From contig NZ_CP110136.1 of assembly GCF_025979705.1 (NCBI RefSeq), forward strand, positions 372,001 to 436,000: a stretch of 64,000 nt of DNA, written 5' to 3'. The notes beneath the pieces are model-generated. The model saw nothing but the letters and a program-made list of their open reading frames with translations. It was not told where the DNA came from and did not search any database. The stretch is from Hymenobacter sp. YIM 151858-1. GTDB taxonomy: Bacteria > Bacteroidota > Bacteroidia > Cytophagales > Hymenobacteraceae. This document shows positions 1 through 64,000 of this stretch, piece after piece (the stretch's first letter is position 1; each line of letters opens with the position of its first letter). The translations under genes were made by a program, and so were the position numbers.

Positions 1-839
1 TCAGAGAGCAAAAACGCGGTGGCCTCGCCGGTAACTACCGTAAGCTTGCCTTGCTGCAGCTGGGCGCGCAGGCGGTAGAAATTCTGCTGCTGGTAGCAGG
101 GCGGCAGAATGGCCTCGGGCAGGTTTTCGGGCCCGAGAAAGAAGAACCGGAAAAAGAAGTTGTCGCGCAGCAGCTCCGTGGACACGTGCCGCACCAAGCG
201 CCGGTAAAACGCCTGCCCACCCGATTCGGGCGCGTAGCGGAACAGCTTCGTATCGCGGCCGCGGCTAAGGTTGGCGTCGTCGAAGTAGCTGATAAACTGA
301 TCCTCGAACGCGGTGCCGTGCAGCTCATCCATAAACCAGCGCCGCTGCTCGGCCAGTCTGTCGAAGGCCGCTAGCTGGCGCACCTTGGCTTGCAGCTCGG
401 GGCTGAGGGTAGGCAGAAAACCTAGCAGGTAGCTTTCGAGCCGACCAGCCGGCAAAATACCCGCCGCGTGGCTCTCGAAAAACGGTGCCCAGTAGGCGCG
501 CAGCTCCTCGGGCAAGGTAGGCTCGAGGGCGTGCCAGGTAGGCAGCACGGCGGCGGGGCCATCGAGGCCGAGCAAGGCGCGCAGCACCTGCGGCTCGTGG
601 TGCAAAATGAGGTACTGCTTAAAGCGCAGCAGGTGGTTTTGCACCGGGTTCAGGTCGATGGCCGTTACGCTGCGCGGTTCCTGCAGCAGTGCGTTGAGGG
701 CATTGCACCCAGCCGAGCTGATGACCAGCACGTCGTCGGTGGCCTGCAATTGCAGCGCTTGGCACAGGGTGGTGCTGCTTTCCCACACCAGCGAGTAGCG
801 GATGCGGTCGAGGGCTACGTTATAGAATTCGGAGTGCAT
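1..839 (-). CDS. DUF3419 / BtaA-like aminocarboxypropyl transferase, 3' end beyond the window
   Basis: About 279 codons are present and the C-terminus lies past the window start. The N-terminal part, with YSLVWESS near residue 16, VLVISSAGCNALNALL near 37-52 and VTAIDLNPVQNHLL near 58-71, matches the SAM-binding fold of DUF3419 proteins. That family includes BtaA, which moves the 3-amino-3-carboxypropyl group of SAM onto diacylglycerol in betaine-lipid synthesis. The DLNP motif is the expected nucleotide-binding acidic loop. The ATG at 839 lies 6 bases after the stop of the upstream AMP-forming ligase gene, so the two are almost certainly co-transcribed. Family membership is seen with good confidence; the substrate is unknown, and no BtaB-like methyltransferase is visible here. 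Confidence 0.75.
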   Translation of the reverse strand, partial: MHSEFYNVALDRIRYSLVWESSTTLCQALQLQATDDVLVISSAGCNALNALLQEPRSVTAIDLNPVQNHLLRFKQYLILHHEPQVLRALLGLDGPAAVLPTWHALEPTLPEELRAYWAPFFESHAAGILPAGRLESYLLGFLPTLSPELQAKVRQLAAFDRLAEQRRWFMDELHGTAFEDQFISYFDDANLSRGRDTKLFRYAPESGGQAFYRRLVRHVSTELLRDNFFFRFFFLGPENLPEAILPPCYQQQNFYRLRAQLQQGKLTVVTGEATAFLLS

Positions 840-845
840 CAGGTG

Positions 846-2282
846 TTAGCGGAGCTGGTCGTAGAGAATCTTGGACAGGTGACGGCGGTCTACAGGCAGA
901 TGCCGCCGGGGCAGTACGCGGTTGCAAAGGCCCGCCGGAAAATGTTGAGCCAGCACCGCCCGCACAGCCGCTTCGGAGGCCGTGCCTTGGTAGTAGATGT
1001 CGAAGCCGGTAGCGGTGGCGCGGGCTGCGGCGCGCTCAACGCCTACTAGCATTTGCAGCACGTGCTCGATCTGGTAGTGCTGCACGCCTAGGTGAATGGC
1101 CTCGTTGCCTTGGCGGCCGGTAAGCCACAGCCGGTTTTGCTCGTCGAAGTAGCCGAAGTCGCCGGTGTGCAGCCACGCGCCCGGCTCGGCAGCCACGTGC
1201 GCGCCTTGCACGCACACTTCGCCTACCTGGTAGTGGCTGCCGTTGGGCAGCACCACCGCACCTAGGGGCTGCAGGCGGCAGTTGAGGCCAGCTTGCACGG
1301 GGCCCACGCAGTAGCCGCCGCGCGGGTTGGTGGCAGTGGCGGCCGCCCGTACGGCAATGGGTTCGGCCTCGGAAGAACCGTAAATCATGTACACCTCGGC
1401 ATCGGCAAAACAAGTGCGCAGGCGCTGCAGCAAGCTCTCGGGCACCGGCGAGCCACCCACACCTAGGGCCCGCACGTGCGGCAGGGGAGTGGGGTGCTGC
1501 TCGAGGTAGCCGCACAGCGCCGCGAAGTAGAACACGTTGCCCGTAAGGGTTTCGACCTGTGTGGCCAGCAGCTGCCGCACCACGCGCGCGGGTTCGAGGT
1601 CGGCTAGCTGGCCCCAGGGCACGTCGGGCAGCACGCTCACGGCACCCACCGATAGGTTATGCAGCAAGATGTTCGGGAACAGCGGGAAGTCGCGCTGACC
1701 TTGCCACGGCGGAAACGCCTGCTTCAGCACCTGGTGCTGGGCTGTGAGCACCGCGTGGCTGCGCCGAATAGCCTTGGCCTGCCCCGTAGAGCCCGAGCTG
1801 TGCGACACCAGCGCTGGCTGCGTGGGCGGCACGGCTTGCGGCGGCAGCAGTTCGGCGGTGCCTAGGTGCTTGGGTGCCCCGAGCAGGCGCAGACCTAGGC
1901 CGCGCGCCAGCCAGCCATACCGCCGCGCCCCTTTGCTCGGCACTAGCGCAGCGCCAACGCCGTTATGGCGCAGCAGCTTCAGCAGCCCTGTGGCCGATGC
2001 GCCGGCAGGCGGCAGCACCGGCACGGCACCCAGACTCATAATGGCGAGCAAGCCGCAAATCAGCTCGGCGCCTACGGGCAATGCCAGCAGCACCGGTTGG
2101 CCGCCTTGCACGCCCTGGCCGCGCAGCAAGTGCTGGTAGGCGGCAATGCGCAGGCCTAGGTCGCGGCCGGTGTAGGAGGTGCTATGGCCTGCCCTAGCCC
2201 CGCCCGGCCACACCAGCAGCACCTGCTCGGCCTGGTGCTGCAGCGTATGGTGAATGTGGTGGTAGAAGTTGGGCAAAGGCAT
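846..2282 (-). CDS. AMP-dependent synthetase/ligase (ANL superfamily)
   Basis: A 478-residue adenylate-forming enzyme. Visible core motifs are the P-loop SHSSGSTGQAKA near 160-171, YGSSEAEP near 302-309, the LHTGDFG box near 371-377, TGRQGN near 388 and a C-terminal SKILYDQ with the likely catalytic lysine. The domain is compact for the superfamily (often 500-550 residues). I chose the ATG at 2282 (protein starts MPLPNF) because the 36 codons upstream in frame look non-coding. It precedes a DUF3419/BtaA-like gene by 6 bases, which suggests a two-step pathway in which an acid is activated and an aminocarboxypropyl group is transferred. The acid substrate cannot be read from the sequence. Confidence 0.82.
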   Translation of the reverse strand: MPLPNFYHHIHHTLQHQAEQVLLVWPGGARAGHSTSYTGRDLGLRIAAYQHLLRGQGVQGGQPVLLALPVGAELICGLLAIMSLGAVPVLPPAGASATGLLKLLRHNGVGAALVPSKGARRYGWLARGLGLRLLGAPKHLGTAELLPPQAVPPTQPALVSHSSGSTGQAKAIRRSHAVLTAQHQVLKQAFPPWQGQRDFPLFPNILLHNLSVGAVSVLPDVPWGQLADLEPARVVRQLLATQVETLTGNVFYFAALCGYLEQHPTPLPHVRALGVGGSPVPESLLQRLRTCFADAEVYMIYGSSEAEPIAVRAAATATNPRGGYCVGPVQAGLNCRLQPLGAVVLPNGSHYQVGEVCVQGAHVAAEPGAWLHTGDFGYFDEQNRLWLTGRQGNEAIHLGVQHYQIEHVLQMLVGVERAAARATATGFDIYYQGTASEAAVRAVLAQHFPAGLCNRVLPRRHLPVDRRHLSKILYDQLR

Positions 2283-2516
2283 GGCAGTTGAGGCGGCAAA
2301 TCCGATGACCAAAGCTGTGAAATTAGTAGCACACCACAGCGTCGAATAACGGCCCGTATCTGACTTTTCAGAACGCTTTGATAAGAACACAAAACTGGCT
2401 TTACATCGAATCTGAAGCAGATATTGAGGTGTAAAATCAGATTTTTAGGTGTTATAAACCGCTATGCCGTTGCGCACCTCCTGGGGTATGTGCCCCAGGC
2501 TCGCCTAACTTGCTGC

Positions 2517-2906: not shown

Positions 2907-2942
2907 GTACGGGCCTGAGTTATCTGTGTGATTGTATGCGTT

Positions 2943-4007
2943 ATGATGCACCGCTTATCTAAAAAACTACTGCTGATTGGCGCCCTGCTAGTAAGCTGGT
3001 TCGCTGAGCTTGCTCAGGGACAAACCCCGCCCAAAACGCCCGCCGATTTTGGCTACCGCCACCTGCGCACCACCTTCGGGCGCGACAGCGTAGACGTGCT
3101 CGTGATGTCGAAGCCGGGCGAGGAGCAGCAGCGCAAACCCTTGCTGCTGGTGGTGCAGGGTTCCTTGCCCCGGCCGCTGATTGTGCCGCACGCCAAAGGC
3201 GCGTACAATGGGTTTGGCTTCACACCCAAGTTGTATACCGATGCCTACCACCTGGTTATCATCGGCAAGCCGGGCATACCGGTGCTAGCCGAGCAAACCG
3301 AGCTGCAGCGCAACCTGAGCTATTTCGAGCCCCAAACGCAGGCGCCGCCCGCTGCCTACTGCCAGCGCAACTACCTCGATTATTACGTGGCCCGCAACAA
3401 TGCCGTGCTCAAGTACCTGATTAAGCTGCCTTGGGTTGATAGCCGCCGCGTGGTGGTAGCCGGGCACTCCGAGGGCAGCAACGTAGTGGCCAAAATGGCT
3501 GCTACCAGCCGCCACCTCACGCACGTGGTATACCTCAGCGGCAACCCCCTAGGTCGGATGTCGACGATGGTGAACCAGCAGCGCAACGCCGACCCCGAGG
3601 CCAGCGCCGATGAGGCCTTCCGCAACTGGCAGCAGATCGTGGACGAGCCCGACAAAGTAACCTGCGGCCCCGGCGACTCACCCAAAACCACTTACTCGTT
3701 TTCGGTGCCGCCCATGCAATACCTGCGCAAAACCCGCGTGCCCGTGCTGGTGGTGTACGGCACCCGCGACGCTGGCGCGCCCTTCTGCGATTACCTGCGG
3801 CTGGAGATGATCCGGGAGCAGAACACGCGGGTGTCGTTCAAGGAATACCCCGGCCTAGAGCACAACTTTTTCGGCTTCAAGGATGGCAAAGTTGATTATG
3901 AGAACCAGTACCACTGGGACGACGTGGCGCAGGATTTTCTCAGTTGGGTGGAGGGCAAGCCGATGAACGCGATGAAGCCCGAAGCCAACGATAGTGTAAC
4001 GCCCTAG
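2943..4007 (+). CDS. Secreted alpha/beta hydrolase
   Basis: A 354-residue protein with an N-terminal signal peptide (hydrophobic stretch LLLIGALLVSWFAELAQG) and an alpha/beta hydrolase fold. The nucleophile elbow VVVAGHSEGSNVV places Ser at about residue 176; the acid is likely Asp at about 276 in VYGTRDAGAPF and the base His at about 307 in GLEHNFFG. Two adjacent ATGs (2943 and 2946) are possible starts; a third at 2928 is less likely. Three Cys residues could form disulfides in the periplasm. The TAG stop lies inside a CCTAGGT motif. Serine peptidase or esterase activity is expected; the substrate is unknown. Confidence 0.75.
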   Translation: MMHRLSKKLLLIGALLVSWFAELAQGQTPPKTPADFGYRHLRTTFGRDSVDVLVMSKPGEEQQRKPLLLVVQGSLPRPLIVPHAKGAYNGFGFTPKLYTDAYHLVIIGKPGIPVLAEQTELQRNLSYFEPQTQAPPAAYCQRNYLDYYVARNNAVLKYLIKLPWVDSRRVVVAGHSEGSNVVAKMAATSRHLTHVVYLSGNPLGRMSTMVNQQRNADPEASADEAFRNWQQIVDEPDKVTCGPGDSPKTTYSFSVPPMQYLRKTRVPVLVVYGTRDAGAPFCDYLRLEMIREQNTRVSFKEYPGLEHNFFGFKDGKVDYENQYHWDDVAQDFLSWVEGKPMNAMKPEANDSVTP

Positions 4008-4200
4008 GTCGGCGGCGCGCAGATGCACAACAAGAGCTAGCTTCAGTTGCACCGCCAAGCTTTGGTTAGCCAGCTTGTACCCTGGCGCACTGGCTGTACT
4101 TTGCTTTGCTAAACGGTAAGGGCTACCTTGGAGCAGCGACTTGTGTAGTTCGAGCTATCTATTGCCACTGGCTGCAGCAGCCCCATTTTTTATACCAAGT

Positions 4201-5130
4201 ATGAGTATCAAACACCTGCTTTCGGGCCTAACCCTGGTTATGCTCGTTTGCTTCAGCGCCACGGCGCAGTCGCTGCCCGAGCGCACTGCTAGCGCCGCTT
4301 GCAATTGCCTGGGTACCATTGCCAATGCCGATACTCTGCAGCAGCGTCTGAAACGCTGTTTGCCCGAAGGCATGGTTACGGCCATGGCAAACGGCTCGGC
4401 CAAGGATCGGGAAACCATGAATACCGTAGAAGGCATTCAGGGCAACATCAAACAGGCCGCTCAGCTGCTACCGAGTGTGTGCCCCGAGGTGAAGCGTGTG
4501 CTTGACGCTCAACCCAAACCCCTGCAAGCCGCTGCCGCCGAGCCCAACGCAAAGGAGGCCCAATACTACCGCTTATCGGCCTCCGAAACCGCCAACAAGT
4601 ACTACGACGAAGGCAACAACCTGCTGAAGCAGCAGAACTATAAAGCGGCTCTGAAACAATTCGAGAAAGCAGCCGAGGCCGATAAGCAGTTCGTATATGC
4701 CCTCGACCACATTGCCATTTGCCACCGGCAACTCGGCAACCTCGACAAAGCCCTGGAGGCGTACAGCAAATCGTTGGCCGTGTACCCCGAGGGCAATTTG
4801 GCCCTACTGAACACAGCAGTGGTGTACTCGCTCAAGAAAGATTGGGCCAACTCGCTGAAATATTACGAGCTGCTCCGGCAATACCACCCCAACGACCCCG
4901 AGGGGTATTTTGGGGTAGGCCGCATGGCCATGCTACAGGAAAACTTTGAAGTGGCGCTCGACAACCTCTTTAAGGCGCACCAGCTTTACGTGGATGCCAA
5001 CTCGCCCTACCGCGAAGACAGCAGCAAGCTGGTGGGCGCGCTCTACGGGCATATGAAAGCCAATGGCCAGCTCGATTTGTTTATGCGCAAAGCCAAGCAA
5101 TACGGCATCGAAATCAACGTGCAGCCCTAG
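4201..5130 (+). CDS. Exported TPR-repeat protein
   Basis: A 309-residue protein with a clear signal peptide (KHLLSGLTLVMLVCFSATAQ). After a short Cys-containing N-terminal region (CNCL, CLPEG, VCPEV) come about four tetratricopeptide repeats from residue 130 onward, for example NKYYDEGNNLLKQQNYKAAL, AICHRQLGNLDKALEAY and AVVYSLKKDWANSLKYY. It is probably a periplasmic scaffold or adaptor. The ATG at 4201 is preferred over an upstream in-frame start at 4141 because it begins the signal peptide. It converges with the M28 peptidase gene across a strong shared terminator. No partner can be assigned. Confidence 0.75.
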   Translation: MSIKHLLSGLTLVMLVCFSATAQSLPERTASAACNCLGTIANADTLQQRLKRCLPEGMVTAMANGSAKDRETMNTVEGIQGNIKQAAQLLPSVCPEVKRVLDAQPKPLQAAAAEPNAKEAQYYRLSASETANKYYDEGNNLLKQQNYKAALKQFEKAAEADKQFVYALDHIAICHRQLGNLDKALEAYSKSLAVYPEGNLALLNTAVVYSLKKDWANSLKYYELLRQYHPNDPEGYFGVGRMAMLQENFEVALDNLFKAHQLYVDANSPYREDSSKLVGALYGHMKANGQLDLFMRKAKQYGIEINVQP

Positions 5131-5151
5131 GTGCTCAGCCGTTCGAAACAA

Positions 5152-5210: not shown

Positions 5211-6863
5211 TTACAGCGACTTGCCGCCGAAACGACCGCCGAAAAAGTCGCCCTTTTTCCAGGTGGGGCGCTGCGGCTCGTTGGCCACCTGGTAGCCGAT
5301 AAGGAAGTTCAGCTGCACGTACTTTTTGCCAGCTTCAAAGTCGAACAGGCCGTTGATGTCGTCCTGCGGTTTGTGGTAGGTTTCGGCGCGCCACTTCTGC
5401 ACCAGCTGGCTGAGGTTGTTTTTGCCATCGGTGGTGCGGTTGCCGTACTTGATGTGCAAGGCCGGGATGCCCTGCGTTACGAAGCTGTACTGATCGGAGC
5501 GGATGAAGCGGTTTTGCTCGGGCTCGGGGTCGGCTTCCACCGTCAGCCCTAGGTAAGCGGCGGCCCGGTCAACCGGCTCGGAGAGCGAGGAGTGCTGGGC
5601 ACCCAGGGGCACTACCGACAGCAGCGGGGCAATGATGGTGGGCATATCGGTGTTCACGTCGGCCACAATTTTGGCCTTGGGCACCGTGGGGTTCGAGGCA
5701 AAGTAGGCCGAGCCGAGCAGGCCCAGCTCTTCGGCGGTTTGCAGCACCAGCAAAATGCTGCGCTTGGGCTTTTGCTTGAGGCGCGAGTAGGTGCGGGCAA
5801 TTTCGAGCACCGAGGCCACGCCCGAGGCATTGTCGTGGGCCCCGTTGTAGATGGAGTCGCCTTTTACGGGCGTGCTGATGCCGATGTGGTCGAGGTGGGC
5901 CGAGTGCACCACGTATTCGTCGCGCAGCACCTTGTCGGAGCCCGTAATCTGGCCCACCACGTTGTAGGAGTCAAAATCCTGATACGTGGAGCCGAAGCTG
6001 AGCTTGGCGGTGCTGTTGAAGGCCGTGGGGGCTGGCTTGCCCGCACGCAAGGCCGAAAAAGCACGGCTGGTATCAGACGAAGCTGCCACAAACAAGCGCT
6101 GCAGCGTGGCGGCGTTGATGTTGCCGAGCACTTGCACGCCGGTAGCGTAGCTGCGCGAGGCGGCCACTTTGCCGTTGCTGCCCAGTACGCTGTAAGCCCC
6201 GCGGCGCAGGTTGGGCAGGGTGCCTTTGGGGTTGGTTGAGGCCACAATTACGCCCACGGCGCCGTGCTGCACGGCGTTTTGCATAATCATGGTGAGGTCT
6301 TGGCTGGCGGCCGATACCGTGGAGGGAAACGCGGCCGGCGCGCCGCGCACGATTACCGCAATCTTGCCTTTGGCATCGAGGCCGGCGTAGTCGTCGTAGC
6401 CCAGCTCGGGCGCCGAAATGCCGTAGCCCGCAAACACCAGGGGCGCCTCCAGCTGCACGCCGGGCAACTCGGGGTTGGGGTAGAATACGTAATCCTGACC
6501 GGCCGCTAGCGGCGCCGCCGCGGCCGGGCCGGCGCTAAGCGCAAAGCTGCTTTCGGGCTTCAGAAAAGCGCGGCGCAGGCGCACCCGCTGCACAAACGAG
6601 CCGTTTTCGCCGGCCGGCTTCACGCCGTACGATTTCAGCTGCTTGGTAACGTAGTCGACGGCCATTTGGTAGCCCTCGGTGCCGGGCTGGCGGCCTTTCA
6701 GCTTGTCGTCGGCGAGGTATTGGATGTGGGCCTTGATGTCGTCGGGCCGAACCTGCCCCACAGCCGCGGCCACTTTTTTATCGATGGTGAGAGACTGAGC
6801 CGCAGCGGGCCCCGCAAGGGTAAGCAGGCTGCCCACAACGAGCAGCGGACGGAAAAAGGCCAT
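5211..6863 (-). CDS. Secreted M28 family zinc aminopeptidase with PA domain
   Basis: A 550-residue exported metallopeptidase. The signal peptide is FFRPLLVVGSLLTLAGPAAAQ. A protease-associated (PA) insert covers about residues 130-260 (GYGISAPELGYDDYAG, GKIAVIVRG). The M28 di-zinc site is intact: His323 in SAHLDH, Asp344 in GAHDNASG, Glu378-379 in TAEELGLLG, Asp406 in NTDM and His497 in TYHKPQDD. The start at 6863 gives the signal peptide; the in-frame extension upstream lacks homology. A Bacteroidetes-type -7 box lies 26 bases upstream. It likely trims peptides in the periplasm or outside the cell. Confidence 0.9.
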   Translation of the reverse strand: MAFFRPLLVVGSLLTLAGPAAAQSLTIDKKVAAAVGQVRPDDIKAHIQYLADDKLKGRQPGTEGYQMAVDYVTKQLKSYGVKPAGENGSFVQRVRLRRAFLKPESSFALSAGPAAAAPLAAGQDYVFYPNPELPGVQLEAPLVFAGYGISAPELGYDDYAGLDAKGKIAVIVRGAPAAFPSTVSAASQDLTMIMQNAVQHGAVGVIVASTNPKGTLPNLRRGAYSVLGSNGKVAASRSYATGVQVLGNINAATLQRLFVAASSDTSRAFSALRAGKPAPTAFNSTAKLSFGSTYQDFDSYNVVGQITGSDKVLRDEYVVHSAHLDHIGISTPVKGDSIYNGAHDNASGVASVLEIARTYSRLKQKPKRSILLVLQTAEELGLLGSAYFASNPTVPKAKIVADVNTDMPTIIAPLLSVVPLGAQHSSLSEPVDRAAAYLGLTVEADPEPEQNRFIRSDQYSFVTQGIPALHIKYGNRTTDGKNNLSQLVQKWRAETYHKPQDDINGLFDFEAGKKYVQLNFLIGYQVANEPQRPTWKKGDFFGGRFGGKSL

Positions 6864-7681: not shown

Positions 7682-8000
7682 CGCATAGTGCGGCTGTTGG
7701 GGTACTGAAATCGATTGCAGGTATTAAATCTAGGTTAAAAACAGCAATAGTCGAATATATGTTAATCGAATTGTAGGCTTTGCGGCAAACAGCGGGCCCT
7801 GGAGCCGGCAGCTCTTACTCGTGCGCAAAGCCTAGGTCAAGAAGCCTAGGTTTGCACCCGTGCCAGCCCAGCCCGAACCAACGCGTAGCCGGGCCCGCGG
7901 TTGGCCCGCCGCGCCCCACGGCCCGGCTCTTAAGTAGGCGGGGCCGGCCCACCACCTAGGTGAGCCGGCCCCGCGGAGCTTTTGTGGTTGAATAAGCCGG
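7682..8000. other. Intergenic region with CCTAGG copies and a terminator, no gene seen
   Basis: This spacer holds three CCTAGG copies and no plausible reading frame. The stretch next to 7682 is A+T-richer (TAAATCTAGGTTAAAAACAG) and probably carries the promoter of the zinc-ribbon gene. The right part holds the terminator at 7938-7974. Confidence 0.6.
7938..7974 (-). terminator. GC-rich terminator hairpin with CCTAGG in the loop
   Basis: An 11-bp perfect stem (7938-7948 with 7964-7974). The loop contains ACCTAGGT. It follows the CZB-like gene, which ends at 8001 on the minus strand. No long T tract follows. Confidence 0.6.
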
Positions 8001-54109: not shown

Positions 54110-54118
54110 ATGCCGGGC

Positions 54119-54825: not shown

Positions 54826-57024
54826 ATGCCCATGCCCGATACCCCCGCAACCCCGCACGCCGAAGTTGCTGCCCGCGCCCGGCCGCGCCGGCCAAGGCGT
54901 TGGCTTTGGTGGGTAGGCGGCGCGGTACTACTGCTGGTTGGGCTGGTGGCTGTAGGTTTAACCATGCTCGACCCCTGGCTGCGCCGCACGCTGCAGGAGC
55001 AGGTAGCCCGCAAAACCCACGGGCAGTACGAGCTGCGCATTGGGGCCCTGCGCACCAGCTTGCGCCAAGGCTCGCTCACGCTGCGCAACGTGTGGGTGCG
55101 GCCTGCTGGTTGGCCCAAGCACAAGCAGCCGGCCAGCCAGCCCGCCCCGTGGCTGCTGCTTACCGTCGACTATGTGCGCGTGGGTGGTGTGAGCCTGGGT
55201 GCGTTGCTGAAGGGCGAGCTGGTGGCTGTAGATACAGTGTTGATCGAAACCGTGCGGGCGCGCGTGCTCGGTACACCCGCCAAGCCCGGCGGCAACCAGT
55301 CCTTGCACGAGCAGCTGCCTAAGCGCATACCGGGTATCCGCATCGGGCATTTTGCGTTGCGCGATGTGCGCGTGGCTTCGGGCCAGCGGGGGCAAGAGCG
55401 CACCCAACTGCGGCAAGGCAACCTCGTGGCGCAGGATATCCTCATCAGCCGCGGCGGTGCTTCCGACTCAACCCGCCTTGGGTACGCTTCAGCTTTCGAG
55501 ATGAATGCCATTAGGCTCGAGGCGCAGGTGCCCGGCCACCACGTGCGCCTAGGTGCGGCGCGCTTTAGCAGCCGTAGCCGGCAGCTCCAACTCGATTCGT
55601 TGCGCGTGGTGCCTGTGGCCGATAAGCAGGCCAAGCCAGGCAGCACAAAGGCCGATTTGTGGTTGCCCCAGGTGCGGCTAAGCGGCCTGCAGCCCAAATT
55701 GCTGCCGCGCCGCGTGCTGCAGGCCGATTCGCTGCGCGTGGTGGCTATGCGCCTGCACGTGGCCGCGCCGGCAACGCCGCCCCCGCCGCTGCATAAAATG
55801 CTGGCGCCTTACCTGCAGCGCGTGCAGGTGCAGCACGTGCACCTAGGGCAGGGCCAGCTGCGCGTAACGCGCGTTTCCATGCTGCCCGAAGTGCGCGACC
55901 TGAACATTGTGGGCACCAACATCCGCATCGACTCCCTAGCCGCCCAGGATGCCCGACGGGTGCTGTACGCCCGCAACTGGCAAGTACGCACCGGCCCCGC
56001 ACAGCTCCGCCTCGATGGCCCTTATTACCGCATGCGCACCGAGCACCTAGGGCTGAGTACCCGCGGGCAGCAGCTGCGCATTACGGGCCTCTTGGTTCAG
56101 CCCACCATGGGCCCCGAAGCTTTGGCCCGCAGCAAAGGGCACCAGGCCTCGCACGTTACGTTTCGGCTACCGGAGCTGCGCGTAACCGGGCTCGACTTTG
56201 GGGCGCTGGAACGGCGCAAGGCCGTGCTGATGCAGGAAATCGAGCTGTGCAACCCGCGCATGCACATCATCAGCAACTCCAAACACCCCATTAACCCCAA
56301 CCCCTCGGTGGTAACGCCCGAAAACGTGGGCAAGCTGCCGTTTCGGCTCGATGTGCGCACGCTGCGCGTGCGCAACTTCGATATGCGCTTCACCTTCACG
56401 GGCAAGCGGGCCTTGCGGCCGGGGCATTTTACCATTACGCGCCTCAACGGGGTGGGCACCAACATCAGCAACAACCCCAAGCGCATGCGTGCGGGCCACC
56501 CCGCCATGCTGCAGGCCACGGCCTACCTAGGGGGGCGGTGCCGCATGCAGGCCAAAGCCTGGGTGCCCTTGCTCGATGCCAACGGCACGCACCGCTTAGA
56601 GGGCACTTTCGGCCCCACGCCCTTCGCGCTGCTCAACCCCGTAACCGAGCCCACCCGCTTTGCCCGGTTCGAGCGGGGGCAGCTGCACGGGCTGCGGGCC
56701 ACGCTGCTGGTAAACCGCCGCGAGGTAACCGGCGCCATGTGGGCCCGCTACTCCAACCTGAAAGTGGATTTGCTGAGCCGCCGCGGGGGCGGGGCCGATC
56801 GGCAGAAGCTGCTGACCAAAGTGGTATCGAAGGTGAGCAACGTGCTGGTGGTGCGCGACGACAACCCGCGCAGCAAAGGCAGGCCGCTGGAGCCCGGCAA
56901 AATTCGCTCCGACCGCAACCTGCACTACGGCGTGTTTTCGGTGTGGCTGCAGGGCATGAACAGCGGCCTGCTCAACAGCGTAGGCGTGCCCAGCAAAATG
57001 GCCGAAGAAATCAGCGAGCTGTAG
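54826..57024 (+). CDS. Large AsmA/DUF748-like envelope protein
   Basis: A 732-residue protein. Residues 20-50 contain a basic patch and one transmembrane helix (LWWVGGAVLLLVGLVAVGLT), as in AsmA-like and DUF748 proteins. The following region (about 55-720) consists of long repeated beta-strands (ELRIGALRTSLRQGSLTLRN, VTFRLPELRVTGLDFGALER, FRLDVRTLRVRNFDMRFTF), consistent with a periplasmic groove that could carry lipids between membranes. That role is inferred from fold. ATGs at 54826 and 54832 are both possible. Three CCTAGG copies lie inside the gene. It is a single gene with no clear operon. Confidence 0.72.
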   Translation: MPMPDTPATPHAEVAARARPRRPRRWLWWVGGAVLLLVGLVAVGLTMLDPWLRRTLQEQVARKTHGQYELRIGALRTSLRQGSLTLRNVWVRPAGWPKHKQPASQPAPWLLLTVDYVRVGGVSLGALLKGELVAVDTVLIETVRARVLGTPAKPGGNQSLHEQLPKRIPGIRIGHFALRDVRVASGQRGQERTQLRQGNLVAQDILISRGGASDSTRLGYASAFEMNAIRLEAQVPGHHVRLGAARFSSRSRQLQLDSLRVVPVADKQAKPGSTKADLWLPQVRLSGLQPKLLPRRVLQADSLRVVAMRLHVAAPATPPPPLHKMLAPYLQRVQVQHVHLGQGQLRVTRVSMLPEVRDLNIVGTNIRIDSLAAQDARRVLYARNWQVRTGPAQLRLDGPYYRMRTEHLGLSTRGQQLRITGLLVQPTMGPEALARSKGHQASHVTFRLPELRVTGLDFGALERRKAVLMQEIELCNPRMHIISNSKHPINPNPSVVTPENVGKLPFRLDVRTLRVRNFDMRFTFTGKRALRPGHFTITRLNGVGTNISNNPKRMRAGHPAMLQATAYLGGRCRMQAKAWVPLLDANGTHRLEGTFGPTPFALLNPVTEPTRFARFERGQLHGLRATLLVNRREVTGAMWARYSNLKVDLLSRRGGGADRQKLLTKVVSKVSNVLVVRDDNPRSKGRPLEPGKIRSDRNLHYGVFSVWLQGMNSGLLNSVGVPSKMAEEISEL

Positions 57025-57083
57025 CGCCTAGGTGCCCGGCCGTTCTGAGGGGCAGTAGCACCTGGGGCGTAGGTATAAAAAAG

Positions 57084-57135: not shown

Positions 57136-59892
57136 TTAGCGCGTCAGGATAAGGCGTCCGCTCTGGGTTTTGGCGCCGGTCGAGAGCTTGTAGAGGTAGG
57201 TGCCAGCAGGCAGCTTGGCGCCATCGAAGGTGTGCTGATGGAAGCCAGCGCTTTGTTGGGCATTCACTACGGTTTCAACCTTGCGGCCCATCACATCATA
57301 CACCTCCAGGCGTACGGGGGCGGCCTCGGCCAGCTGGTAGGTGAATACCGTGCGCTGCGCGAAGGGGTTGGGCGCGGCGTACACCGGCGCATCAATGGCC
57401 GGAGCGGTTTCAGTGGCCGTGCGAGCAGCAGTTGCCGAGGCGGTGCTGGCGGCAGCGTCAACCGGGGCAGAGGTCCACTGATCGTGGGTGCGCGTTACGA
57501 TTACGGCAAAGTCGGCCCGCTTTACCTTTTGCTGCGGCTTAAAGGTGGCGTGCAGCGTGGGCTGCAAATCGTAGGGGCCTTGCATTACGCTGTAGTAAGC
57601 GTTGATGATGTTCATATCCAGAGCCACTTGCACGTAGCCTTCGAGGCCGGCCGGAATTTGCGCCGCATCATCAATAGCAATACGTTGGCCGTTTACCTCC
57701 ACCGTTACGGGGCCGGTGGCTTGCTGGGCTTTGTTTTGCAGCCCCAGGCTTTGCACCAGCGAGTAAGCCAGGCTAGCCCGCGTAACAACTGCGTTCGGAG
57801 CAAACACACCGGGCGAAACCGGCTGCATCACGCCGTTTTGCACGTGGTACCGGTCGCGGAGCGCCGCGCCGCGGGCCGTTACCGACTCGGCCAGCAGCGC
57901 CTGCACGCCCGTTACGTCGCCGAAGGAGTTGGCGCCGCTCACCGGCAGGTACTGGCGCACGGCCTGGCCCATCAGCAGATAGTCGGCCAGCTGAATGCGG
58001 CTCAGGTCTTGGTCGGGCTTAAAGCCGTTGCTGAGGCCATCCATCAGGCGTTTGCTGACGGCCAACTGAATCGAGGTTTCGGCCGGGTGGCCAGCGGCGT
58101 CGCCTAGGCCCGTGGCACCTAGGGCTTTGTTCAGGGCGATGGTACCCGAAACGGTTTCGGGCAGCGCGGCGCCTTGCAGGCCATCGAGGCGCACCGTCCA
58201 GGTGCCGGCTTCGGGGCTGGCTACGGCCACCGCGCGGCCGGGGCTGGTGGCAAACAGCACCGAAATGCCCGAGGCGTAGCGCTTACCGCTCGGCGAAAGC
58301 AGCACCAGGTTTACGGGGTTGCCGGTTTCGCCCAGCAGGCCGGTTACTTTGCAGCTAACCTCCAGCGACGACGTGCCGGCCGGTACCGCAAACGTTTGGC
58401 TGTTGGTGGCGGTGGTAGCCGGGTTGAAGTTGATGGTAAAGGGCGCGCTCGAAACGGCCGAGTTCACGCTGCTGTTGAAGGCGCGCTTGGCATTTACCGT
58501 GGGGCCGTAGCCAGCAGCCCGGAAGGCGCGGTCGACGGCGGCGTAGGCGTTGGCCATGCCGTGGCCAATTTCCCACGACTCGCGGTTGGGCAGGTTGGTA
58601 GCGGTTTGCTCCAGAATGCTTTTAACCTCGGCCGGCGTCAGGTTGGGGTTGGCGTCCAGCATCAGGGCCACGATACCGGCCACGTGCGGCGCCGCCATGG
58701 AGGTGCCCGTAAGGTGCGTGTAGAAGGGCACGTGGGCCGGCTCCAGGTTTTCAACGTCCTGCTGGGTGCTCAGCACCCCAACCGGCGACACGGCGCGCGT
58801 CGAGACGATATCGGTGCCGGGGGCCGTTACGGTCGGCTCATCGCGCCACGGCAGGGTTTGGCCGTCAATGGTTACCGTGCCGCTTACGCCCTTACGGCCG
58901 CGCGACGACGAGGGCGCCAGCACGCCCGCTTTATCGGAGTTGGCCACCGTAATTACCCACGGCGCCTTTTTGTAGTTGCCGGTAATGGTGCCCGAGCCCG
59001 CGCCCGAGTTGCCGGCCGAAAACACCACCACAATGTTGCGGTCGACGCAGCGCTTGGTGGCAATGGTGATGGGGTCGGCAGGGTTCGGCTCGGTGGCAAT
59101 GTCGGAGGTAGTGCCGAAGGAGTTGGTGATAACCCGGATGTTGTACTGGAACTGGTTTACCAGCGCGTAATCGAAGGCGCCCACCACATCCAGAATAAAC
59201 AAGCCCGCGCCGGTGCCGTAGCCGATGAGGTCGGCGCCGGGGGCCACGCCGGCGTGCTTGCCGTTGGAGGCCGCGCCCGTGGCGCCTACAATGCCGGCTA
59301 CGTGCGTGCCGTGGCCACCGGTTTGGTCGGTGTTCGGGATGTTCTCCAGGTACGTAATCGGCAGCAGCGCATTCTGAGCCTTCAGGTTGGTGGTGCCCAG
59401 TACGTTCTGCTTCAGATTTTTACCTAGGGTGTGGTCGGGGTGCGTGCCGTCGATGCCCGAGTCGTTTACTACCACCCCAATGCCCTTGCCCGACACCGGC
59501 AACCCGCCGTTGCGCTGGGTAAACAAGGGCTCGAGGCGGGCGCGCTGGGCACCCGTAAGGGCGGTGGCGCCGTCGTTGTCGCGCACCAGCGAGCGGTTCA
59601 GGTAAATCGACACCACGTTGGGGTCTTGGGCGAGGCGGTCAATCTGGGCGCTGGTGGCCAGCACGCCCGCTACCGGCAGGGCGCGCATAGTTACGCCCTG
59701 CACAATGCCCAGCTGCTGCAGTGCCAGCTTGTTGGCCAGGGTAGGGGCCGAGTTGCCCTTAAACGTTACCACCACCTGATGCAGATCGAGCGGGTTGGTG
59801 AGCAGGGGTTGCAGGTGCGAGTCGAGGTAAGCTTGTGCGAAAGTCCCGGTGCTGCCCATCCAGAGCAACACACCGAGTAAAGTTCTTTTCAT
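57136..59892 (-). CDS. S8 subtilase with SLH-like domains and T9SS sorting signal
   Basis: A 918-residue secreted serine peptidase. Signal peptide TLLGVLLWMGSTGTFAQA; inhibitor-like propeptide to about 105; catalytic domain with Asp144 (VVNDSGIDGTH), His194 (GGHGTHVAG), oxyanion Asn295 (SAGNSG) and Ser398 (GTSMAAPHVAG). A P/Homo B-like beta domain (about 485-600) follows, then three S-layer-homology-like repeats (about 640-840: ISRIQLADYLLM-like helices, FGDVTGVQALLA, RASLAYSLVQSLGL). The C-terminus (about 845-918, RLEVYDVMGRKV, LPAGTYLYKL) is a type A T9SS sorting domain. Probably displayed on the cell surface. Confidence 0.9.
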   Translation of the reverse strand: MKRTLLGVLLWMGSTGTFAQAYLDSHLQPLLTNPLDLHQVVVTFKGNSAPTLANKLALQQLGIVQGVTMRALPVAGVLATSAQIDRLAQDPNVVSIYLNRSLVRDNDGATALTGAQRARLEPLFTQRNGGLPVSGKGIGVVVNDSGIDGTHPDHTLGKNLKQNVLGTTNLKAQNALLPITYLENIPNTDQTGGHGTHVAGIVGATGAASNGKHAGVAPGADLIGYGTGAGLFILDVVGAFDYALVNQFQYNIRVITNSFGTTSDIATEPNPADPITIATKRCVDRNIVVVFSAGNSGAGSGTITGNYKKAPWVITVANSDKAGVLAPSSSRGRKGVSGTVTIDGQTLPWRDEPTVTAPGTDIVSTRAVSPVGVLSTQQDVENLEPAHVPFYTHLTGTSMAAPHVAGIVALMLDANPNLTPAEVKSILEQTATNLPNRESWEIGHGMANAYAAVDRAFRAAGYGPTVNAKRAFNSSVNSAVSSAPFTINFNPATTATNSQTFAVPAGTSSLEVSCKVTGLLGETGNPVNLVLLSPSGKRYASGISVLFATSPGRAVAVASPEAGTWTVRLDGLQGAALPETVSGTIALNKALGATGLGDAAGHPAETSIQLAVSKRLMDGLSNGFKPDQDLSRIQLADYLLMGQAVRQYLPVSGANSFGDVTGVQALLAESVTARGAALRDRYHVQNGVMQPVSPGVFAPNAVVTRASLAYSLVQSLGLQNKAQQATGPVTVEVNGQRIAIDDAAQIPAGLEGYVQVALDMNIINAYYSVMQGPYDLQPTLHATFKPQQKVKRADFAVIVTRTHDQWTSAPVDAAASTASATAARTATETAPAIDAPVYAAPNPFAQRTVFTYQLAEAAPVRLEVYDVMGRKVETVVNAQQSAGFHQHTFDGAKLPAGTYLYKLSTGAKTQSGRLILTR

Positions 59893-60474
59893 AGGGAACA
59901 GTAGGGGGTTGGTTGTGAGCGGATGTACGCACCCTACTGCGGCGGCGGTTTTCACCTCAACCGTAAATTTTTTAACAAAATCGCAGAATCAGTGTTTATA
60001 CGTTGGAGGTATGGTAATAATACTTGCGTTTATTATTAATAATGTTAAAATACGCTTTTGGATTCAGCTTGGAATAGCAAAGGGCTCAATTCAGATAGTC
60101 ATGCTATTACGGCAAAGCAATATTGGCTTAAAGCAAGCCCTGCCGCAAGGCTACCCGTTGGTTGCAACCGGCTGCGGCAAGCCCTGTCGTGTTGCTGCAG
60201 CCGCCGAAAAAAAATTGACCTAGGGTTGCCGTGCCTTGCCCGAGAGCAGGCCAAAGGGCTGCTGGTGCGAAACCGGAAAGTGCACCAAAAACCAACCGGG
60301 TTTCGTTTACTACGAATACCGGGCGCTGCCCGGCAGCGCAATGCCAAGGCCAATGTCGGGGTTGTTGCGTAAGTTTCGAAAGCAGTTACCGAACCGAAGC
60401 AAGCGGACCTACCCCCAAAGGCGCCCAGGTTTCCCTTCCAGACCTGTATTCACGCACTTTTACCGTTTGCCGCC
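59893..60474. other. Long divergent intergenic region, no gene seen
   Basis: About 580 bases between the divergent subtilase and desaturase genes. The part at 59950-60120 is strongly A+T-rich (TTTATTATTAATAATG) and probably holds promoter elements. The frames here lack coding character. One CCTAGG lies at 60220. Confidence 0.6.
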
Positions 60475-61236
60475 ATGATTATCTGGGTCGCCTTTTTCGC
60501 GCATTGGTACCTGTCGCTGTTTGCGCAGTCGTTTTTTCAGCACCGCTACGCGGCGCACCGCATGTTTAGCATGCACCCGCTGTGGGAGCGGTTTTTCTTC
60601 GTTTTCACGTTCCTCACGCAGGGCTCGAGTTTTATGTCGCCGCGGGGTTATGCGCTGCTGCACCGCATGCACCACGCCTACTCCGATACCGACAAAGACC
60701 CCCACTCGCCGCACAACTCCACCAATGCTTTCAGCATGATGTGGAAAACCCGCACCGCCTACCAGGAGGTGCTGAAGGACGAGCACCCCAACGCGCACCG
60801 GTTTGCGGGCGGCGACTACCCCGTGTGGCAGGCGCTCGAGGAGTTCGGCAACAAGTGGTACACCCGCGTGGGCTGGGGCGCGGTTTATGTGCTGTTTTAC
60901 GTGGCGTTTGCCACGGCCTGGTGGCAGTATTTGCTGCTGCCCATTCACTTCGCCATGGGGGCCGTGCACGGCGCCATCGTTAACTGGGGCGGCCACAAGT
61001 ACGGCTACCAGAACTTCGACAACCACGACAAGTCGCGCAACTCCCTGTTCTTCGACTTCCTGACCGGCGGCGAGCTGTTCCAAAACAACCACCACAAGCT
61101 GCCGTTGCGCGTCAATTTCGGCGTGAAATGGTGGGAGCTTGACCCCACGTACCCCGTCATCTGGACCTTGGATAAGCTGCACATCGTGCGGATTAAGCGC
61201 AAAGCGGGCCAAGACAGCGTTCCGCTGGCGGCCTAG
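60475..61236 (+). CDS. Membrane-bound fatty acid desaturase (acyl-CoA desaturase-like)
   Basis: A 253-residue integral membrane di-iron enzyme. Histidine boxes: HRYAAH (23-28), HRMHH (63-67), and NNHHK near 206, plus an extra HKYGYQNFDNHDKSRNS. Four hydrophobic segments fit the topology of delta-9-type desaturases. It probably introduces a double bond into membrane acyl chains, useful at low temperature. It is shorter than delta-9 enzymes with cytochrome b5 domains. The start at 60475 is the first ATG and matches the membrane start. Confidence 0.87.
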   Translation: MIIWVAFFAHWYLSLFAQSFFQHRYAAHRMFSMHPLWERFFFVFTFLTQGSSFMSPRGYALLHRMHHAYSDTDKDPHSPHNSTNAFSMMWKTRTAYQEVLKDEHPNAHRFAGGDYPVWQALEEFGNKWYTRVGWGAVYVLFYVAFATAWWQYLLLPIHFAMGAVHGAIVNWGGHKYGYQNFDNHDKSRNSLFFDFLTGGELFQNNHHKLPLRVNFGVKWWELDPTYPVIWTLDKLHIVRIKRKAGQDSVPLAA

Positions 61237-61257
61237 GTGCTGCCAGATGCAATGTGC

Positions 61258-61293
61258 GCGGCCGGCGGCTACCCCTAGGTGGCAGCCGGCCGC
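61258..61293. terminator. Terminator between convergent desaturase and kinase genes
   Basis: A 9-bp GC-rich perfect stem (61258-61266 with 61285-61293); the loop contains CCTAGGT. The T-rich tract TGTGTTT follows on the plus strand. Confidence 0.75.
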
Positions 61294-62411: not shown

Positions 62412-62740
62412 GGGATTAGGCTACAAGAATGGTGAGTGTACCATATTCCTGCTGGTATTGTTGTATTTGCTGCAGGCTTGGGAGGCTAAAAAGGCAGACA
62501 GCACGGCCGCAGCCGTGTAAAATGGCGTGGCCGCACCAAAATGACGCAACGGCGGTAAGTAGTTCCGGCCTGCCAAAATCAGCAATTATCGGAGGGGCAA
62601 ACCCGTATAAATCGTGGACCTAGGGCCCGATGAATGCCGTTTAAGGCAGTGTTGGTTGGCCGGGCGGCGGGGTATTCCGTAAGAGGGCCCGGCTACAACG
62701 CTACTTGTATCATCTTTCATCTTGGGCATTTTCTGCCGTT
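62412..62740. other. Divergent intergenic region with a short hairpin
   Basis: About 330 bases between the kinase gene and a small hypothetical gene. A short hairpin (CACGGCCGCAGCCGTG) lies near 62502-62517, and one CCTAGG near 62620. No gene seen. Confidence 0.5.
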
Positions 62741-63040
62741 ATGCAACCTGCATCAGCTATTCAGCTACACCTCGTACCGGCGGGGCGTCGGCTCGATTTC
62801 AACGTCAGCCCGGGCAACTACGCTTACGTTTACCGCCGCTGCCGCAACCAGGAGTGGCAATGCGTGGCCCACAACGCCTGCAGCCCCTACCTCGATAAGG
62901 CCCCGATTGAACCCAGCGCCGCGCCCGAGTACATGGTGCACTACCGCAACGCCGACGGCACCGTTACGGCTGCCACCGACGTGGTGCGCGCCGACCCGGC
63001 CGGTATGCCACGCACCACCAGCTGGATTAACCTCGCCTAG
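62741..63040 (+). CDS. Small hypothetical protein
   Basis: A 99-residue protein of unknown function. It has no signal peptide; sequence blocks such as DFNVSPGNYAYVYRRCRNQE, WQCVAHNACSPYLDKAPIEP and YMVHYRNADGTVTAATDVVR suggest a compact beta-rich fold with three Cys. The ATG at 62741 is preferred over an upstream start at 62705. The TAG stop is part of CCTAGG, and a strong terminator follows, which supports a real gene. Confidence 0.6.
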   Translation: MQPASAIQLHLVPAGRRLDFNVSPGNYAYVYRRCRNQEWQCVAHNACSPYLDKAPIEPSAAPEYMVHYRNADGTVTAATDVVRADPAGMPRTTSWINLA

Positions 63041-63090
63041 GTAGCCCGGGGCTGCATTGGCCCTTGGGCTTTGTTACCACGTATCCAGCC

Positions 63091-63129
63091 AACGCGAAAG
63101 GGGCAAGCCGAGCTTGCCCCTTTCGCGTT
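63091..63129. terminator. Terminator overlapping the stop of the convergent small gene
   Basis: A 17-bp perfect stem (63091-63107 with 63113-63129) with a CCGAG loop. The right arm includes the TAA of the minus-strand gene at 63128. Confidence 0.85.
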
Positions 63130-63400
63130 AATGGTAAAACAGCTTTTCTTCCTTCGTGATGTTCCAGTAGTACAGCATTTTGCCTTGCTCATCGGAGTAG
63201 CGCGGATCGGTGATGGTGCCCCAGTTCATGATGGAGCAGTTGGCCTCGAGGTGCACCGTTTTTTCCTTTGATTGGGCGATGGTGCGCAGGGCCTCTACCT
63301 CGCAGTTGTTTTCGAGCAGGTTGGAGCGGTCGTGGGCGGAGTAAAACCACGTGAGGCCCACCAGCAACGCGAGGTACCCGTACCGCCATGCGCCCCGCAA
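63128..63400 (-). CDS. Small single-pass membrane or exported protein
   Basis: A 90-residue frame with one hydrophobic segment (YGYLALLVGLTWFYS, about 7-21), then a polar domain with two Cys and WGTITDPRYSDEQGKMLYYW. The only start that includes the helix is TTG at 63400; an in-frame stop lies shortly upstream. No family is recognised. Because the start is non-standard and the protein small, confidence is moderate. Confidence 0.5.
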   Translation of the reverse strand: MRGAWRYGYLALLVGLTWFYSAHDRSNLLENNCEVEALRTIAQSKEKTVHLEANCSIMNWGTITDPRYSDEQGKMLYYWNITKEEKLFYH

Positions 63401-63692
63401 ATGGTAAATTTATGCATGCACCCGATACGCCATGTGTCGACTGGGTATTGGAGTTGGCCATAGATGGGCACCTTTGGAAGAGCACATTGATGCAGCAACG
63501 TGCAGATTTGACAGAGTAAGGGTATCGGCGGCAAATATCCAACAATGCCCGAGGATAGCTGTGCTGCCCGCTGCGAATCTGCCGCAATACGGCAATGGCC
63601 CGGCCGCTTGGGGTGCCCCCGAATGCCACAGCCCCCTAGGTCGGCTTGCTGACCTAGGGGGCTGTGGGTGTTATCGGGCTGATAAGAGCCGC
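63401..63692. other. Intergenic region with a terminator, no gene seen
   Basis: About 290 bases between the small membrane gene and the next subtilase. It holds the strong terminator at 63626-63667 and no coding frame with support. Confidence 0.55.
63626..63667 (-). terminator. Long terminator with CCTAGGT in both stem arms
   Basis: A 17-bp perfect stem (63626-63642 with 63651-63667). Each arm carries the CCTAGGT motif. It follows the subtilase gene ending at 63693 on the minus strand. Confidence 0.85.
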
Positions 63693-64000
63693 TTACTGCA
63701 CCGGCGAAACGGCCCGCAGGGCATTCAGGCGGCCGTAGCCGTAATACGGGTCGCGGCCGGGCTTGCCCAGGTCGTCGGCCGAGGCGCGCAGGGCGGCTTC
63801 TACCTGCGCCGGCGCCAGCTGGCCGCCGTGCTGCCCAATAATCAGGGCGGCTACGCCCGCCGCGTGGGGCGCCGCCATGCTCGTGCCCGCCGACCAGGTG
63901 TAGCCGCCGGCGCGGTTCGTGCTCAGCACCATGTCGAAAGCCCACACGTTCGAGCGGAAGCCCCGGAAGTTCACCAGCTCGTTGGTGGGGTAGGAGTAGT
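63693..64000 (-). CDS. S8 subtilase, C-terminal end only (start beyond the window)
   Basis: About 102 codons of the C-terminal part of a second subtilase. The catalytic Ser lies in YTWSAGTSMAAPHAAGVAAL, followed by a helix of the S8 fold (APAQVEAALRASADDLGKPG) and the end motif YYGYGRLNALRAVSPVQ. The frame continues upstream out of the window, so the true start is unseen. It ends right after the catalytic domain, without the SLH-like or T9SS parts of the subtilase at 57136. Confidence 0.85.
   Translation of the reverse strand, partial: YSYPTNELVNFRGFRSNVWAFDMVLSTNRAGGYTWSAGTSMAAPHAAGVAALIIGQHGGQLAPAQVEAALRASADDLGKPGRDPYYGYGRLNALRAVSPVQ

Follow-up and report, generated by a model that had tools for sequence, protein, structure and literature searches.

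Why does the hexamer CCTAGG recur so densely in the chromosome of Hymenobacter sp. YIM 151858-1? An earlier note on a 64,000-nucleotide stretch of this chromosome (NZ_CP110136.1, positions 372,001 to 436,000; hereafter the window) had counted about 80 copies and claimed strong over-use. The over-use is confirmed: the window holds 83 copies, where dinucleotide shuffles give 13.97 ± 3.22 and a third-order Markov model, the comparison that the note had proposed, gives 13.9. Under a second-order model CCTAGG is the most over-used hexamer of the window; a fourth-order model expects 64 copies, because the 5-mers within CCTAGG are themselves raised by CCTAGG. Across the whole genome (4,621,779 bases) there are 5,325 copies, roughly one per kb, against 75 of the reversed control word. 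Here, we describe the repeated unit as a directional, bipartite and clade-specific word, and we argue from its distribution that it probably, though by no means surely, acts as an uptake-type tag, comparable to the DNA uptake sequences (DUS) and uptake signal sequences (USS) of other bacteria and read by a receptor that is not part of a pilus.

The repeated unit is a directional 8-mer

The earlier note had also seen that most copies have T on one side. Reading either strand, T stands on exactly one side in 79 of the 83 window copies, on both sides in 1 and on neither in 3. In a 604-kb sample, made up of the window and 27 further genome stretches of 20 kb each, 676 of 729 CCTAGG copies have A before or T after but not both, 14 have both and 39 have neither. 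Observed/expected ratios (O/E) in this sample, under a second-order Markov model, are 42.7 for CCCTAGGT, 10.2 for TCCTAGGT, 9.5 for GCCTAGGT and 2.7 for ACCTAGGT, and they fall to 0.4-1.3 when CCTAGG is flanked by C or G on both sides. Within these 604 kb the palindrome is not enriched without a one-sided T; enrichment comes only with it, and the unit is therefore a directional 8-mer. Thus, the over-use that had been proposed stands, but the palindrome is not the signal.

Genome-wide, CCCTAGGT is present in 3,106 copies and shows no strand bias (1,551 forward, 1,555 reverse). The consensus is strong, with CCTAGGT at an O/E of 15.2 and the 18 single substitutions inside CCTAGG at 0.33-1.50. For replacements of the final T the ratios are 2.6-10.5, in large part because these counts take in sites that read from the opposite strand. 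Two variants, CTTAGGT (8.4-fold) and TCTAGGT (3.1-fold), are raised relative to low genomes (those with more than 1,000 CCTAGG are called high throughout), the pattern expected of decayed copies.

A weak second element lies downstream of the core

Alignment of 201 oriented sites gave an isolated rise in information, six bases wide. With 400 kb more sequence (675 sites), this rise reads RGSRSC at +30 to +35, numbering from 0 at the base preceding CCTAGG, and each position carries a Kullback-Leibler divergence of 0.063-0.111 bits over a noise of 0.003. The element is weak, lies 23-28 bases downstream of the core and is present on the T side only. Apart from the core and the bases next to it, nothing else between -60 and +67 exceeds 0.03 bits in the 675 sites; when only the 477 CCCTAGGT sites are used, a few other positions have small rises of 0.02-0.04 bits. 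We rejected a coding artefact as the source of RGSRSC, because it is present in the 298 non-coding sites alone; it is also seen in genes read either way.

A matrix trained on half of the sites scored +0.47 at offset 30 in the held-out half, with other offsets mostly at -0.2 to -0.75, and one trained outside the window gave a mean of 0.68 on the 79 window sites. RGSRSC recurs in the sister genome (G412; 229 sites). Used on the window species (G000), the G412 matrix finds no second element in the reverse direction (-0.02 ± 0.04, n = 765), and in the forward direction it scores 0.78 ± 0.06, 0.95 ± 0.08 and 1.05 ± 0.15 at cores beginning with C, G and T, respectively, although the two genomes share orthologous sites and such cross-species scoring is not fully independent. 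The second element is somewhat stronger at weaker cores, a trend of about two standard errors. A 5-kb overlap between loci L159 and L005 was trimmed in the G412-matrix scoring and the conservation analysis and kept in the dialect and window-site scoring. These results confirm a directional, bipartite word rather than an over-used palindrome.

The 79 directional [CGT]CCTAGGT sites over window positions 1 to 64000, which as a set carry the weak RGSRSC at +30 to +35, are as follows.

1086-1093, plus strand, GCCTAGGT
1260-1267, minus strand, CCCTAGGT
1461-1468, minus strand, CCCTAGGT
1860-1867, plus strand, GCCTAGGT
1893-1900, minus strand, GCCTAGGT
2154-2161, plus strand, GCCTAGGT
3547-3554, plus strand, CCCTAGGT; strong second element AGCAGC at 3577-3582
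4002-4009, plus strand, CCCTAGGT; contains the TAG stop of the open reading frame (ORF) 2928-4007
5125-5132, plus strand, CCCTAGGT; contains the TAG stop of ORF 4141-5130
5547-5554, plus strand, CCCTAGGT
7830-7837, plus strand, GCCTAGGT
7844-7851, plus strand, GCCTAGGT
9848-9855, minus strand, CCCTAGGT
9924-9931, plus strand, CCCTAGGT
10486-10493, plus strand, GCCTAGGT
12277-12284, plus strand, GCCTAGGT
13032-13039, plus strand, CCCTAGGT
13884-13891, minus strand, CCCTAGGT
14894-14901, minus strand, CCCTAGGT
16176-16183, plus strand, CCCTAGGT
16339-16346, plus strand, CCCTAGGT
16363-16370, minus strand, CCCTAGGT
18296-18303, plus strand, CCCTAGGT
19115-19122, plus strand, CCCTAGGT
19886-19893, plus strand, CCCTAGGT
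20581-20588, plus strand, TCCTAGGT
21455-21462, minus strand, CCCTAGGT
21547-21554, plus strand, CCCTAGGT
21620-21627, plus strand, CCCTAGGT
21726-21733, minus strand, CCCTAGGT
23477-23484, plus strand, CCCTAGGT
24174-24181, plus strand, CCCTAGGT
24377-24384, plus strand, GCCTAGGT
25724-25731, minus strand, GCCTAGGT
25807-25814, plus strand, CCCTAGGT
26312-26319, plus strand, CCCTAGGT
27589-27596, plus strand, GCCTAGGT
27843-27850, minus strand, CCCTAGGT
29925-29932, minus strand, CCCTAGGT
31109-31116, plus strand, CCCTAGGT
31584-31591, plus strand, TCCTAGGT
31989-31996, plus strand, CCCTAGGT
32929-32936, plus strand, GCCTAGGT
33380-33387, minus strand, CCCTAGGT
35387-35394, plus strand, CCCTAGGT
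35640-35647, minus strand, GCCTAGGT
36309-36316, plus strand, CCCTAGGT
36668-36675, minus strand, TCCTAGGT; contains the TAG stop of ORF 36670-37116 (minus strand)
38184-38191, minus strand, CCCTAGGT
39142-39149, plus strand, CCCTAGGT
39205-39212, minus strand, GCCTAGGT
39397-39404, minus strand, CCCTAGGT; small stem, with the strongest second element of the window at 39369-39374
40406-40413, plus strand, GCCTAGGT
40880-40887, plus strand, GCCTAGGT
42879-42886, minus strand, CCCTAGGT
42972-42979, minus strand, GCCTAGGT
44717-44724, minus strand, TCCTAGGT
45209-45216, minus strand, CCCTAGGT
45988-45995, minus strand, CCCTAGGT
47640-47647, plus strand, TCCTAGGT
51819-51826, plus strand, GCCTAGGT
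52486-52493, plus strand, GCCTAGGT
52762-52769, minus strand, CCCTAGGT
52827-52834, minus strand, CCCTAGGT
53419-53426, plus strand, CCCTAGGT
55547-55554, plus strand, GCCTAGGT
55841-55848, minus strand, CCCTAGGT
56045-56052, minus strand, CCCTAGGT
56525-56532, minus strand, CCCTAGGT
57026-57033, plus strand, GCCTAGGT
58117-58124, minus strand, CCCTAGGT
59422-59429, minus strand, CCCTAGGT
60218-60225, minus strand, CCCTAGGT
61231-61238, plus strand, GCCTAGGT; contains the TAG stop of ORF 60475-61236
61273-61280, plus strand, CCCTAGGT
62618-62625, minus strand, CCCTAGGT
63035-63042, plus strand, GCCTAGGT
63634-63641, plus strand, CCCTAGGT; left half of a hairpin-forming inverted pair
63652-63659, minus strand, CCCTAGGT; right half of the same inverted pair (63634-63659)

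The word is patchy among relatives and varies between clades

Among 204 genomes of the family, CCTAGG exceeds 5,000 copies in nine (G000, G412, G413, G214, G259, G265, G307, G321 and G338) and lies at 1,209-2,331 in four (G344, G271, G350 and G269); the remaining 191 have 54-888. The genus of the window species (g1, Solirubrum-like) holds both states, with three of its eight genomes high (G000 and the congeners G412 and G413) and the other five at 123-249. On a tree of one gene (PDH E2) from 28 chosen family genomes, 13 of them high and 15 low, there are five changes of state, the minimum forced by well-supported branches. In an order-wide sample of 241 genomes that includes part of the family, the maximum outside the family is 1,349; the top two counts there, 1,349 and 1,138, belong to G043 and G150 (f9, g39). 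Among named genomes, the one relative found is Solirubrum puertoriconensis MC1A (Cytophagales; 90% identity, 763 residues matched). Absence of the bias from close relatives had been proposed as grounds for discarding it, and taken literally five congeners do lack it, but two congeners and four other clades show it again; patchiness thus belongs to the word and does not refute the bias.

The enriched genomes sampled use different dialects. The word is SCCTAGGT in G000, G412 and G413, CCTAGG followed by G or T in G307, CCCTAGGG in G214, ACCTAGGT and ACCTAGCT in G259 and G338, and CTAGGCCA[CG]T in G344; for G269 and G321 the words were read from 7.5 and 40 kb, respectively, and G350 and G271 lay outside the dialect sampling. 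All sampled dialect words contain CTAG, and those of G259 and G214 are largely palindromic. Counted alone, CTAG has a density of 0.5-0.6 per kb in G234 and three low g1 genomes; G274 reaches 1.5, and the sampled enriched genomes range over 1.8-5.9.

To what sequence do the sites correspond where the word is missing? In the five low congeners it is kept in 0 of 85 aligned site-genome pairs, whereas same-composition 8-mers are kept in 23-31%. The counterparts (for example GCTGGGC, CCTGGGC, CCCAGGT and CCGAGGT) have 1-6 differences of several substitution types. This alignment used ungapped sites only and is thus weaker than the gap test of PMC1626085; the aligned counterparts indicate that the sites arose by several substitutions. 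Between high genomes, CCTAGGT is kept in 100 of 144, 31 of 44 and 35 of 49 cases. Conservation of the second element between high genomes (0.887, flanks 0.865) differs too little to be used.

The word is scarce in sampled mobile-looking DNA

Along the chromosome the density is even, at 7.5-16 sites per 10 kb in 27 of 28 samples; the exception lies near 3.0 Mb. There, no directional site occurs in 32.5 kb, after 3,002,490 and up to 3,035,000, a stretch with genes for a phage-type integrase, a cytosine methyltransferase (at 3,021,030) and a Schlafen AlbA-type protein. This is in line with the distribution of DUS, described as atypical in integrative elements in PMC7371117. Contigs C2 (158 kb) and C3 (101 kb), called plasmid-like by size only, have 1 and 0 sites in their first 15 kb, and a 42-kb contig of G412, so called on the same ground, has 0 in its first 20 kb.

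Sites are denser outside predicted genes

By our own codon-usage gene calls, density is 0.92 per kb in predicted genes (439 kb) and 1.96 elsewhere, stop-overlapping copies included; control hexamers of the same composition are reversed in this respect (non-coding 47.5, coding 62.4). Inside genes of the 604-kb sample, 377 of 404 copies are read as C-CTA-GG, encoding Leu-Gly, and 27 encode Pro-Arg; Leu-Gly predominates because the other two frames give Pro-Arg or a stop. The 377 copies make up 29% of all 1,317 Leu-Gly pairs. In the window, CTA is used at 5.9 per thousand codons (motif included) and CTG at 63.6, which bears out the earlier view that intragenic copies use a rare leucine codon. One orientation is preferred in reading frames (222 vs 155, P = 0.0007), as is also described, together with a gene-end bias in Pasteurellaceae, in PMC2346458. 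In their position along genes the copies show no difference from Leu-Gly pairs. Leu-Gly at the motif is kept as Leu-Gly in low genomes in 59% of 82 pairs, and in 69% of 244 control pairs; this difference is weak, and we do not rely on it as a sign of amino-acid cost.

The link to stop codons is a modest excess: 45 of 176 TAG stops (25.6%) lie inside CCTAGG, against 562 of 3,742 non-coding TAGs (15.0%). The stops cited previously at 4005, 5128, 36670 and 61234 do lie within copies, but at 63038 the ORF stops four bases further on (63042-63044). Likewise, of three proposed hairpins, those at 63634-63659 (z = -7.3) and 7954 (z = -4.3) are more stable than their shuffled versions, and the one at 39399 (z = -1.2) is not clearly so. 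A terminator role was rejected, as inverted pairs show no clear excess and only single good hairpins are found. Spacing is slightly more even than random, a weak effect, with 113 adjacent pairs closer than 200 bp (139 expected) and 29 closer than 60 bp (45 expected). The CCTAGG-free stretch at 47.6-51.8 kb, noted before as lying at about 47.7-51.8 kb, exists but is not unusual for this spacing (P about 0.29).

Likeness to known uptake sequences

As of 2006, uptake sequences were known only in Pasteurellaceae and Neisseriaceae (PMC1626085). According to that paper, they occur about once per kb without favouring an orientation, are spaced slightly regularly with some close pairs inverted, prefer non-coding DNA, and have a very strong consensus and an origin by mutation; USS also carry flanking motifs on the 3' side of the core, at intervals of roughly one helical turn. 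PMC12616744 describes dialects whose inner cores stay constant. Inverted close pairs aside, the window word has these features except for the number and letters of the flanking motifs; its own close pairs (<60 bp, n = 29) are 19 opposite and 10 in the same direction, not a clear excess, with one clear hairpin at 63634-63659.

The USS of Pasteurellaceae resemble the word in density, symmetry, even spacing, non-coding preference and consensus (PMC1626085, PMC12616744), as well as in point-mutation origin, a directional core with weaker downstream element(s), and clade variants that share a core. They differ in having a GCGG core instead of CTAG, in having two AT-rich elements instead of one GC-rich element 23-28 bases after the core, and in the type II/IV pilus ATPase of USS bacteria, of which none was found here in 17 genomes. 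The DUS of Neisseriaceae share clade dialects with a common inner core and thousands of copies (PMC3630211), but according to PMC12616744 they are continuous words of up to about 13 bases with no distant element, and their receptor is the pilin ComP, whose pilus motor was not detected here. Nearer in phylogeny, Riemerella anatipestifer (Bacteroidota) is competent and transforms with ComEC and proteins unlike pilus machinery, including a DUF5689 protein and a carboxypeptidase-regulatory-like outer-membrane protein (PMC8459023); however, the term 'uptake sequence' is absent from the main text of that paper, and its DUF5689 candidate has no word-tracking counterpart here. The open-access literature, among the matches listed, held no uptake sequence in Bacteroidota and no report of this word, and searches on CCTAGG over-representation and Hymenobacter words returned nothing relevant among the matches listed.

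Candidate machinery

Gene families were scanned in 17 genomes (10 high, 7 low). ComEC is present as an open frame in all 17. Among the other nine of ten proteins scanned around comEC in the window species, nothing competence-like was found. As a receptor we considered DUF5689 (PF18942) and rejected it: matches are strong in five of seven enriched g2 genomes scanned, and the genome search gave none in G214, G344 and G000. The G307 gene lies in an operon with genes for SusC, SusD, a phosphoesterase and a glycerophosphodiesterase; its neighbour in G321 and G338 is a SusD gene, and G259 has ORFs of the same sizes. A weak match in G412 lies between the MutS2 and MurB genes, where ORFs of matching sizes occur in G000 and partly in the low genome G415, so this locus does not separate high from low.

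What could maintain the word

The analogues named by the earlier note were HIP1 of cyanobacteria and the uptake sequences; the latter fit on most genome statistics tested. HIP1 is a poor match: the word has a direction and two parts, and the species sharing it have none of three tested methyltransferase families in common. In an explanation of the HIP1 type, which Elhai proposed for cyanobacteria (PMC4390886), an orphan DNA methyltransferase would modify the word, and methylation-directed repair would create and keep copies. The similar density of HIP1 and alternate HIPs (about 500-2,500 per Mb) and their patchy replacement between genomes (PMC4390886) fit this idea, as do the palindromic dialects of G259 (ACCTAGGT) and G214 (CCCTAGGG). 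Each enriched g1 genome also has some DNA methyltransferase, and a word-specific enzyme may belong to any family, so that family counts alone do not exclude it. However, HIP1 is a palindrome tied to orphan methyltransferases, and here the palindrome is not enriched unless it has its one-sided T, and a one-sided element lies 23-28 bases away. Such a process would require a suitable enzyme in each of G000, G412 and G413, and of the families PF01555, PF00145 and PF02384 (PF02086 and PF07669 were not searched) none is common to these three, so that candidates from them were rejected: G412 carries only PF02384 of the three and lacks PF01555 and PF00145, and G413 carries only PF01555 and lacks PF00145 and PF02384. 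Among the ten high genomes PF01555 is absent from 6, PF00145 from 8 and PF02384 from 2, G344 having none of the three; PF02384, present in the other 8, also occurs in each of the 7 low genomes scanned. Sampled plasmid-like contigs of the same cell, moreover, are nearly without the word. We thus regard this explanation as unlikely. We think it about as unlikely that the word serves an internal DNA-binding function selected directly, as a Chi-like hotspot or a signal for chromosome organisation or segregation. A short directional word spread evenly over the chromosome would suit such a role, but strand bias is slight, with 362 of 676 sites (53.6%) on the presumed leading strand, a hand-made sum with halves assigned by position only and the origin not determined, and five of eight congeners lack the word. 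A second element at 23-28 bp is not known for Chi or KOPS sites.

The Leu-Gly predominance within genes might suggest a mutational or codon-usage bias that creates CCTAGG, but the word is about twice denser in non-coding DNA, where it keeps its second element at a fixed distance, several substitution types separate its sites from their counterparts, and the sampled plasmid-like contigs are nearly free of it; such a bias is very improbable. With the mutational, HIP1-type and Chi-like options failing or weakened, drive by biased gene transfer therefore remains. This need not act at uptake. A gene transfer agent or phage-derived packaging enzyme might recognise the word and cut near the second element, so that neighbouring alleles would be exported more often. 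Direction plus a weak element at a fixed 23-28 bp would fit an enzyme whose binding and acting sites lie apart. The chromosome is rich in the word and the mobile-looking DNA sampled has little of it, and no pilus ATPase was found; however, the drives of such form described in the literature cited act on the uptake side, and we consider packaging an improbable source of the bias.

We therefore return to uptake. We would not file the word as a member of DUS or USS, but judged by its genome statistics it seems, on balance, to work like one. We infer competence in the species, a receptor that recognises the word, and a drive by biased uptake. In this model, a surface or envelope receptor would bind double-stranded DNA carrying CCCTAGGT, with G or T tolerated as first base, and would make a second contact two to three helical turns downstream. 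Word-bearing DNA would be favoured for import through ComEC, and recombination would replace resident alleles. Alleles that gained the word by mutation would then be copied into the population more often, and the word would accumulate where coding allows, that is, in intergenic DNA, Leu-Gly codon pairs and TAG stops, until saturation near one per 0.8 kb. Clades with receptors preferring other CTAG flanks would build other dialects. It is possible, although we put this at slightly less than even, that the words form a third, independent lineage of self-DNA tags, in Bacteroidota and with a non-pilus receptor, that has arisen or been re-tuned several times around a CTAG core.

Several observations weigh against the uptake model. 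The second element is clear in G000 and G412 alone; in G214 and G307 the rises are weak and scattered, and G259, G338 and G344 have none that is clear. Retention between high genomes is only moderately better than for generic 8-mers (69-71% for CCTAGGT, 42-45% for the 8-mers, lengths differing). There is no gene-end bias (Kolmogorov-Smirnov test against uniform, P = 0.064, the last tenth being poorest), and the excess of inverted over direct close pairs is not clear. None of the 17 genomes gave a match to the type II/IV secretion ATPase family (PF00437), which was found in 14 of 14 control genomes, pilin families not being searched. ComEC is equally present in low genomes and so leaves the patchiness unexplained; no gene for a receptor was found, DUF5689 not tracking the word, and we found no report that the organism is competent.

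Other repeated and avoided words

The window holds several further repeats. A perfect CAGCTAA tandem array of 20 copies without mismatch (53437-53577) looks like a phase-variable or recently expanded repeat. Two other 7-base tandem arrays, GTGACAG (32193-32241) and ACCTGTC (32337-32375), are mutual reverse complements up to rotation. A repeat of about 230 bp (about 35212-35446), possibly an inverted-repeat element, is present, among the matches listed, many times and in either orientation in G412 and in some copies in G413, and one of about 100 bp (about 27801-27905) has further copies in G411 to G415, high and low, among the matches listed. Some words are avoided in the window: GGATCC (0 vs 5.9 expected), TCGCGA (0 vs 20.1) and GCGATC (0 vs 24.7); GGATCC ranges from 0 to 645 per family genome. 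Elsewhere in the family, a second set of over-used words, AAGCATCTCT/AGAGATGCTT, has 30 copies in 180 kb of G214 (L024-L025 and L066-L072), and GAAGCATCTC has 11 in 200 kb of G338 loci; each is perhaps a dispersed hairpin repeat.

Implications

If the tag works by uptake, sequence-specific recognition of self DNA needs no type IV pilus, and the word would offer an entry to the outer-membrane step of transformation in Bacteroidota. Because saturated and near-empty species stand in one genus, biased uptake can be tested against selection, and close species pairs with and without the tag would let its gain be followed site by site. In such genomes, the word would also mark laterally acquired DNA.

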